Positions 34,088-36,763 of a stretch of 64,000 bases of DNA are shown here, piece by piece; within the stretch, counting starts at the first letter, position 1, and every line of letters begins with the position of its first letter. Source of the stretch: Jiangella sp. DSM 45060 (lineage in GTDB: Bacteria > Actinomycetota > Actinomycetes > Jiangellales > Jiangellaceae); the NCBI RefSeq assembly GCF_900105175.1, contig NZ_LT629771.1, positions 372,001-436,000 on the forward strand, written 5' to 3'. The notes below the pieces were generated by a model. That model was not told the origin of the DNA. It did no database searches and was given only the letters and a program-made list of their open reading frames with translations. The position numbers and the translations under genes are program-made.

Positions 34088-34257
34088 GGTGGCGGGACGC
34101 GTGGTGGCGGAGGGCTGCCGCGGTGGCGGGACGCGTGGTGGCGGAGGGCTGCTGCGGTGGCGGGACGCGTGGTGGCGGAGGGCTGCTGCGGTGGCGGGAC
34201 GCGTCGTAGCGGAGGACTGCCGCGGTGGCGGGACGCGTCGTAGCGGAGGACTGCCGC
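34088..34257 (+). repeat. Five tandem copies of a 34-bp unit
   Basis: Units begin GGTGGCGGGACGCGT at 34088, 34122, 34156, 34190 and 34224. Copies 1-3 and copies 4-5 form two subtypes (GTGGTGG versus GTCGTAG in the middle). A sixth partial unit starts at 34258. The period is not a multiple of three and no start or Shine-Dalgarno fits, so it is non-coding. There are no spacers, so it is not CRISPR. It lies between the two 79-bp repeats. Confidence 0.9.
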
Positions 34258-34271
34258 GGTGGCTGCGGGGT

Positions 34272-34350: not shown

Positions 34351-34462
34351 CGACGTGGCCGTGCCGAACCTCGCGGCCCCGCCGACGGTGGCGGCGCCGG
34401 GCCGGCCCCGCCGACGACCGGGCCGCCCCCGCCGACGACCGGGCTGGCTGAGCCGACGACGG

Positions 34463-35777: not shown

Positions 35778-36584
35778 TCAGCCCTGGACGACCACGACAT
35801 CACCGGCGCTCAGGCCGAACTCGGCGGCCGCCGAGCCGCCGTTCACGACCAGCTCCAGGAAGCCCGGCCCGGAGCTGCCGGTGACCAGCGCGGCGACGCC
35901 GACGGGCACGTCGGAGAGCCGCTCGTGGTGACGCACCTTCGTGGCGCCGACGGCGACCCGGTCGCCCGCGACGATGCCGAGGTCAGCGGCGGTGCAGGTC
36001 AGCTTGCAGTTGCCGAAGTTGTCGACGAGCGCGACGCGGACGCCGTCAGGCTGCTCAGGCGCCGCCAGCTCGACGGACGACGACGGCACCGGCCGGTCGT
36101 CGAGCACCCACTTGGCCAGCAGCGGGAGGTACCAGAGGCTGCGGAACTGCGTGGTCGCCAGCCCGGCGGCGTCGGCCGCGCCGATGGACGCCCACTCGGC
36201 CGCCGCCAGCACCGTCGCCGCGTCAGTCACCGAGACGGAGCTCACGCCGAGGTGGCGGCGCACCGGGTCGAGCAGCACCGGGTCGCACGTCGTGAACACG
36301 GTGTGCCGGCCGTGCCGGAACCAGCCGAACGGCGCCCCGTTGGGCCACCGGCCGTCCCGCGGCGCCACGTTGACCAGCGTCACCGTCGGGAAGCCGTCCT
36401 CGCCGAGCAGCCGCGTCGACAGCAGCACGTCCAGCAGCGTCAGCCCGGCCGACTCCAGCGGCGCCGGCCCGTCCAGCGGCAGCAGCACCGGCGACCGCCC
36501 GAACAGCGCCGCCAGGCGGGTGGTCAGCCGGGCCTGCGCGTTGGCGTCGGAACAGTCGGTGAGGTACGTGATCGGCGGATACAT
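35778..36584 (-). CDS. SAM hydroxide adenosyltransferase-like protein (DUF62 family, 268 aa)
   Basis: N-terminal 'PITYLTDCSDANAQARLTTRLAALFG' and C-terminal 'DGVRVALVDNFGNCKLTCTAADLGI' match the two domains of the SAM-dependent halogenase/hydroxide adenosyltransferase family. Members of this family hydrolyse S-adenosylmethionine to adenosine and methionine, and a few chlorinate or fluorinate it. The Asp of the first motif (LTDC) is present. I cannot verify halide selectivity. A short Met-rich ORF and an intrinsic terminator precede it on the same strand, which suggests attenuation control. Confidence 0.8.
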   Translation of the reverse strand: MYPPITYLTDCSDANAQARLTTRLAALFGRSPVLLPLDGPAPLESAGLTLLDVLLSTRLLGEDGFPTVTLVNVAPRDGRWPNGAPFGWFRHGRHTVFTTCDPVLLDPVRRHLGVSSVSVTDAATVLAAAEWASIGAADAAGLATTQFRSLWYLPLLAKWVLDDRPVPSSSVELAAPEQPDGVRVALVDNFGNCKLTCTAADLGIVAGDRVAVGATKVRHHERLSDVPVGVAALVTGSSGPGFLELVVNGGSAAAEFGLSAGDVVVVQG

Positions 36585-36608
36585 GCTTCCCCTCGGGACG
36601 TGGGCATG

Positions 36609-36637
36609 AAAAAAGGCCCCCGCGCGGTGCGGGAGCC
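36609..36637 (-). terminator. Intrinsic terminator (attenuator) upstream of the SAM-hydrolase-like gene
   Basis: On the minus strand: a 9-bp GC stem (GGCTCCCGC / GCGGGGGCC, one G-U pair) with a 5-base loop, directly followed by six T. It lies 25 bp upstream of the DUF62 start codon and 24 bp downstream of a 15-residue leader ORF. No protein-coding gene ends just before it, so it must act on the leader transcript. Confidence 0.85.
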
Positions 36638-36660
36638 CGAGAGACTGACGGTGGGACGCG

Positions 36661-36708
36661 TCAGGCCAGCATCGAACGGCCGCACAAGGAGTGCAGCATT
36701 CGCATCAT
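36661..36708 (-). CDS. Putative Met-rich leader peptide (15 aa)
   Basis: ATG ATG at 36708 opens MMRMLHSLCGRSMLA, stop at 36661-36663. Four of 15 residues are Met. It starts ~20 bases after the predicted transcription start and is followed by an intrinsic terminator before the SAM hydroxide adenosyltransferase-like gene. This is the layout of amino-acid attenuation leaders. Translation itself is not shown by sequence; Shine-Dalgarno complementarity is weak (CACGGCCACGCC). Confidence 0.5.
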   Translation of the reverse strand: MMRMLHSLCGRSMLA

Positions 36709-36733
36709 GGCGTGGCCGTGCGTCACGTCACAG

Positions 36734-36763
36734 ACCGTACCGACGCACTTTCGGCGGGGTCAA
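36734..36763 (-). promoter_or_regulatory. Promoter for the leader/SAM-hydrolase transcript
   Basis: Minus strand: -35 TTGACC (36763-36758), 18-bp spacer, -10 TACGGT (36739-36734). The start would be near 36727, just upstream of the leader ORF. Close to housekeeping sigma consensus. Confidence 0.65.

Follow-up and report, generated by a model that had tools for sequence, protein, structure and literature searches.

Amino-acid attenuators of Actinobacteria are known from the trpE/trpS, leuS and ilvB leaders (Seliverstov et al. 2005, PMC1262725; S. lividans TK24, PMC8079986). Several of the trp/leu-type examples are leaderless in Streptomyces (PMC1262725, PMC8079986), a genus in which leaderless transcripts commonly have their start some 6 nt after a TAnnnT box (PMC8079986). 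No conserved RNA structure was found upstream of methionine operons (PMC1262725), and the metL leader before metNIQ of S. lividans, MSTTSDRTPATEATTTPGARCMCRRMCAF, has been proposed as a Met-dependent attenuator (PMC8079986, table 4). As to the protein family concerned here, SAM hydrolases activate water with a His-Arg-Asp triad (PMC10491745); the physiological relevance of (R,S)-SAM hydrolysis has been doubted, and the role of the DUF62 proteins is debated (PMC12120602). Here we describe the leader of a DUF62-like gene of Jiangella which, from sequence comparison and folding models, appears to be a ribosome-mediated transcription attenuator with Met control codons, a reading to which we assign a probability of roughly 0.8.

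The window, i.e. the whole stretch of 64,000 nucleotides that was analysed, sits in a 7.5 Mb Jiangella chromosome. Read directly from its sequence, the minus strand carries a promoter, a short ORF, an intrinsic terminator and the DUF62-like gene, in that order (Table 1). The elements named by the first-pass annotation (a promoter, a Met-containing ORF, a GC stem with six T and a DUF62-like gene on the minus strand) are thus all present, and the stretch ATGATGCGAATGCTG lies between the -10 box and the stop TGA. A generic promoter scan using a TATAAT-like -10 found no promoter at the locus; the terminator scan found one site against 0.3 expected, the intrinsic terminator at 36638-36614. Folding predicts that strands 1 and 2 pair around a variable 5-nt loop (36690-36686), and CCGCAC (36632-36627) within strand 3 is the antiterminator partner. 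The small hairpin over the stop codon, analogous to a Streptomyces hairpin at the same place (GCTTCGCTAGCGAAGC), falls inside the antiterminator loop. A divergent gene for a hotdog thioesterase (Pfam 4HBT) is the nearest one on the other side. Elsewhere in the window, a 34-bp tandem array (5.2 copies, 96% match, 34088-34263) is placed between a UDP-glucose dehydrogenase-like gene and a LytR-CpsA-Psr gene, and a second array of 21-bp x 3 occurs at 34397-34460.

Table 1. Predicted and observed features of the leader and the regulated gene (positions in the window)
Feature	Position	Strand	Basis and remarks
Sigma-70-type promoter TTGACC-18-TACGGT	36734..36763	-	Direct reading; -35 = 36763-36758, -10 = 36739-36734; spacer 18 nt
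Leader-peptide ORF, GTG start (most likely), MTHGHAMMRMLHSLCGRSMLA*	36661..36726	-	Start from conserved 7-nt spacing to the -10 box; stop TGA 36663-36661
Putative control-codon core ATG-CGA-ATG-CTG (Met-Arg-Met-Leu)	36694..36705	-	Pattern in 47/47 leaders; unique per Jiangella genome
Strand 1 (CGAATGCTGCAC), 5' arm of 1:2 hairpin	36691..36702	-	Folding
Strand 2 (GTGCGGCCGTTCG)	36673..36685	-	Folding; partner is strand 1, or strand 3 via GTGCGG (antiterminator)
Small hairpin over uORF stop codon, CTGACG..CGTCAG	36645..36664	-	Alignment and fold
Strand 3, terminator 5' arm GGGCTCCCGC(AC)	36627..36638	-	Terminator scan and folding
Strand 4 and T-tract, intrinsic terminator	36609..36623	-	Strand 4 = 36623-36614; six T = 36614-36609
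Shine-Dalgarno-like GAGGGG of regulated gene	36589..36594	-	Direct reading; conserved in Jiangella alignment
Regulated gene, DUF62/SAM_HAT-like, 268 aa, divergent N-terminal domain	35778..36584	-	SAM_HAT_C match; AF2 fold; ATG at 36584

The leader ORF had been annotated with 15 residues from ATG 36708. The ORF itself is real, and its start lies most likely further upstream at GTG 36726, exactly 7 nt past the -10 hexamer, which gives 21 codons and makes ATG 36708 the internal codon 7. A GTG in frame at exactly this distance occurs in 11/11 aligned Jiangella upstream regions. Because the 7-nt distance between the -10 box and GTG is conserved, we infer a leaderless start, without a 5' UTR, and leaderless translation of the uORF.

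A search for related loci gave 64 relatives, and 48 actinobacterial orthologue loci were examined. One of them (L079), a partial match with unusable upstream sequence, was left out, so that the comparison covers 47 leaders from the seven genera Jiangella, Kribbella, Streptomyces, Kitasatospora, Streptacidiphilus, Actinospica and Catellatospora. In all 47 an in-frame RTG follows TANNNT by 6-8 nt (exactly 7 nt in 45/47), the in-frame core [AC]TG-CGA-ATG-[AC]TG is invariant, and a terminator lies 16-32 nt past the uORF stop; the core is at codon 7, 8, 9, 10 or 11 depending on the lineage. The leader peptides include MQHTATLAMMRMMPPPPEALR in Streptomyces, MTWYAAMRMLSPRCGGL in Kribbella and MTSPEPQPSLRMMRPVGRETAGA in Catellatospora; those of Kribbella are Met-poor, with AMRML and in one case LRML. 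Every gene-bearing Jiangella genome has a single copy of the 12-mer ATGCGAATGMTG, found only at the leader, and G005, the sole Jiangella genome without the gene, lacks it. Since the core is invariant in 47/47 leaders and the 12-mer, within Jiangella, is confined to gene-bearing genomes, conservation of the leader, as judged by alignment, is beyond chance. The proposal that Cys, His or Ser serve as the control codons did not hold up: Streptomyces leaders are without Cys, Kribbella has C, Y or F at that place, and the H-x-x-C of Jiangella spans the variable hairpin loop (CGAATGCTGCAC-NNNNN-GTGCGGCCGTTCG).

A Met regulon would show further copies of the motif. Such copies were sought in Jiangella and related genomes and in those of Patescibacteria; the other exact matches lie within longer or unrelated ORFs, where no terminator-and-gene arrangement was seen, and in the genomes checked the motif was seen nowhere else together with a leader and a terminator. 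In the leader of Streptomyces sp. WAC08241 (L064) one C is missing from the hairpin loop, and the frame consequently runs past the uORF stop; the cause is a sequencing error within a run of C, or else control was lost naturally. In Kribbella loci L025-L056 the entire core and the last part of the uORF are surrounded by an outer stem (TACGCCGCT..AGCGGCGTA, roughly 100-160 nt upstream of position 2501), an arrangement that differs from the stop-codon hairpin of Streptomyces.

The transcripts of the 47 leaders, each up to the terminator loop, were folded by partition function with the positions occupied by a ribosome masked. With the P site on the xTG, CGA or ATG of the core, strand 3 was paired to upstream RNA in 47/47, and with the ribosome at the stop codon its pairing to the leader ORF was zero. 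Without a ribosome, strand 3 was little paired in Streptomycetaceae and Actinospica, and in Jiangella and Kribbella its pairing varied. When the ribosome was moved one codon further, the pairing was largely lost in Streptomycetaceae and Actinospica, and the switch window therefore matches the conserved codons. The observed contrast was reached by 0/300 leader shuffles in the tested Streptomycetaceae, 0-1/300 in Actinospica, 0-8/300 in Kribbella and 13/300 in Catellatospora. Within Jiangella alone 1-82/300 shuffles reached it, so that the switch is less distinct there, because the region is GC-rich. Strand 2:3 duplex energies inside Jiangella are for the same reason mostly not significant, and the evidence for pairing therefore rests on the other genera. 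The sequence of the antiterminator helix varies by genus with the pairing kept (GTGCGG:CCGCAC in Jiangella, CCGGAGG:CCTCCGG in Streptomyces), and in most actinobacterial 1:2 hairpins the CGA, which lies in strand 1, is itself paired (CGAA:UUCG). Antiterminator and terminator are accordingly predicted to be mutually exclusive, with the position of the ribosome on the control codons deciding between them, less clearly so within Jiangella alone.

Patescibacterial homologues, 30-38% identical, have leaders of their own in unrelated sequence. At least four ATG within six consecutive in-frame codons were found in 8/21 patescibacterial upstream regions, against an expectation of 0.01 from shuffles and 0/1060 background windows; by this strict test most of the 21 homologues, the Microgenomates-type ones among them, are without a Met leader. 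The Met-rich runs include MMMGMM, MMRMM, MMMMMMRMM, MMMEMM and MSMMHMM, and examples of the leaders are MMMGMMTSAYEG (L072), MMMMMMRMMNLFHVG (L076), MMMEMMT (L077), MMRMMRAASVRAV (L078), MSMMHMMTCENRG (L065), MMMAMMTLKNEG (L097) and MMMDMMMFTV (L105). Sequence 3' of the Met codons is complementary to the terminator arm beyond shuffles in 10/13 patescibacterial leaders (p<0.05 each), and the strand 2:strand 3 complementarity gives a Fisher chi2 of 113 (26 df) overall; in the folding models of these leaders the ribosome-free state is antiterminated as well. The middle codon of the Met cluster is arbitrary (CGT, CGG, GGA, GAA, GTA, GCA, GAT or CAC), for which reason Met, and not CGA/Arg, is taken as the common signal. 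Cys, His, Ser and Arg are not common to the patescibacterial and actinobacterial leaders, and Met is. Alignments and predicted folds together give a conserved ORF, conserved codons, terminators and alternative pairings, with Met as the codon feature that the two phyla have in common. The short ORF and terminator, whose conservation had been named as the check on the first-pass annotation, are kept in seven genera and in a second phylum; what conservation and predicted pairings support in that annotation is a leader whose Met codons are regulatory, together with attenuation by terminator and antiterminator.

In the proposed mechanism, the transcript would be leaderless and begin at the start codon of the uORF, where the ribosome would start translating. 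With charged elongator Met-tRNA plentiful, the ribosome would reach the stop codon and cover strand 2, strand 3 would pair with strand 4, and transcription would terminate ahead of the gene. With Met-tRNA scarce, the ribosome would stall with the invariant ATG (or the adjacent xTG) in the A site and cover strand 1; strand 2 would stay free and capture strand 3, the terminator would be blocked and the DUF62-like gene transcribed. If no ribosome is present, the 1:2 hairpin should favour termination, most clearly in Streptomyces and its relatives. CGA itself may slow decoding at one more step, or may simply be there for the 1:2 hairpin. The signal would then be the charging of Met-tRNA, with the gene on under methionine shortage and off when methionine is plentiful, and it is probably ribosomes slowed for want of methionine that turn the gene on.

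Three other explanations were weighed against Met control codons. The sensor might be the invariant CGA, reporting Arg-tRNA or slow CGA decoding, with the ATG codons as spacing only. CGA is as invariant as ATG in the 47/47 actinobacterial leaders, Met is singled out by the patescibacterial comparison only, and in the folding strand 2 is also freed when the stalled ribosome has CGA in its A or P site. We nevertheless consider this improbable: Patescibacteria have the eight different codons listed above at this place, with Met on both sides, and the pairing of CGA in strand 1 of most 1:2 hairpins is another reason for its conservation. A marginally lower probability is given to nascent-chain arrest, in which MMRM[ML] would stall in the ribosome in response to SAM, methionine, an antibiotic or the like, and not to an empty tRNA. 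Arrest peptides need fixed side chains, whereas the residues around the Met codons vary between the phyla (MMMGMM, MMMEMM, MSMMHMM, MMMMMMRMM), and single-codon runs are typical of tRNA-sensing attenuators; these points outweigh, in our judgement, a short conserved motif and an exact stall position that recall arrest peptides, the SAM-enzyme fold of the target, and a sporadic gene distribution that recalls inducible resistance genes.

Least probable of all, and very unlikely, is an RNA element that works independently of translation, i.e. a riboswitch or protein-binding leader in which the ORF is incidental. The strong conservation at the nucleotide level and the stable hairpin inside the ORF would suit such an element. 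Against it, the leaderless start keeps the frame although its distance from the core takes five different values, the patescibacterial leaders have Met codons and not RNA sequence in common, and no Rfam family matches at the gathering threshold. In the window the Rfam search at that threshold gave no match, SAM riboswitches included, which also leaves the earlier suggestion of a SAM-binding RNA unsupported; at a permissive threshold only weak sub-threshold matches to unrelated families appeared at the leader. An attenuator with Met control codons remains the preferred reading.

The only domain that Pfam and NCBIfam recognise in the target protein is a C-domain of the SAM_HAT_C type: no Pfam model matched the N-domain at the threshold used, and NCBIfam scores were far under cut-off. 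The AlphaFold (AF2) model (pLDDT 91.7) matches DUF62, fluorinase and chlorinase structures with Z about 16-20 (VIA-align), the next unrelated fold reaching 6.7, and the protein as modelled has a DUF62/fluorinase-type fold. In a sequence alignment with genuine DUF62 proteins of the same bacterial family, VDPGVGTERR (VDPGVGTxR) is replaced by VNVAPRDG (VNVAPRxG) and TFHGRD by TQFRSL (TQFRSxx), so that two members of the hydrolase triad are replaced, Asp by Asn72 and His by Arg148. Residues invariant across both phyla include N72, A74-R76, G78, N82-G83, Q146-S149 and V187-K194. On this alignment the target is a distinct conserved DUF62 branch, because the triad residues are replaced and other residues are invariant over two phyla. 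The annotation as a SAM-hydrolysing enzyme is not supported for a protein in which SAM_HAT matches the C-domain only and the triad is replaced. Jiangellaceae also encode genuine DUF62 proteins (L013, L014, L017) with the VDPGVG[TS]xRR motif intact, and the divergent protein is therefore an additional branch and not a replacement.

Met codons in the leader would go together with the SAM-enzyme fold predicted for the target. Since amino-acid attenuators mostly control genes that help to restore the amino acid concerned, we infer, by analogy, that the enzyme helps to restore methionine. Only tentatively, and at somewhat less than even odds, do we suggest that the attenuator marks a DUF62-derived family which, by a chemistry other than that of the hydrolase triad, releases or salvages methionine from SAM or from a compound resembling it. 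If so, we know of no earlier physiological signal for any protein of the DUF62 type.

The gene is sporadic. It was found in 10/11 other Jiangella genomes, in 4/247 Streptomyces genomes (one split by a frameshift) and in 16/335 genomes of a patescibacterial class; a phylum-wide actinobacterial sampling of 396 genomes returned the query itself only, and neither viral contigs nor plasmids yielded homologues. The split orthologue, in Streptomyces genome G1008, falls into two frames (L114, L115) near residue 122 of the profile, which may reflect an error of assembly. No gene neighbours are conserved across genera, conservation being confined to one genus, and the gene therefore travels alone with its leader.

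If the proposed attenuation is correct, the leader hints at what a little-known gene, present in soil actinobacteria and in ultra-small bacteria very distant from them, is for. A Met-codon attenuator kept with one DUF62 branch in two distant phyla would mean that the branch is wanted under methionine shortage, and its role becomes directly testable. Methionine would become a further amino acid served by a leader-peptide attenuator of the terminator type, and leader-peptide attenuation would appear to work in Patescibacteria, bacteria with very small genomes. No description of such an attenuator of a DUF62 gene was found in the literature searched, a coverage that left most subscription journals and preprints outside.

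Compared with the DUF62/(R)-SAM hydrolases, the fluorinase FlA and the chlorinase SalL, the target has a like predicted fold and the SAM_HAT_C domain, but its N-domain is without a Pfam match and the hydrolytic Asp and His are missing. The metL leader of S. lividans is similar in being Met-containing, leaderless and proposed for Met attenuation; it differs in its peptide and its target, a methionine importer, and no typical Rho-independent terminator was found there. With the classical actinobacterial attenuators the locus shares a short leader ORF (often leaderless there), control codons, a predicted antiterminator and an intrinsic terminator (found in several of them). Unlike them, it has putative control codons for Met, a conserved CGA-ATG pair, a counterpart in Patescibacteria, and a target that is neither a biosynthesis nor a tRNA-ligase gene.
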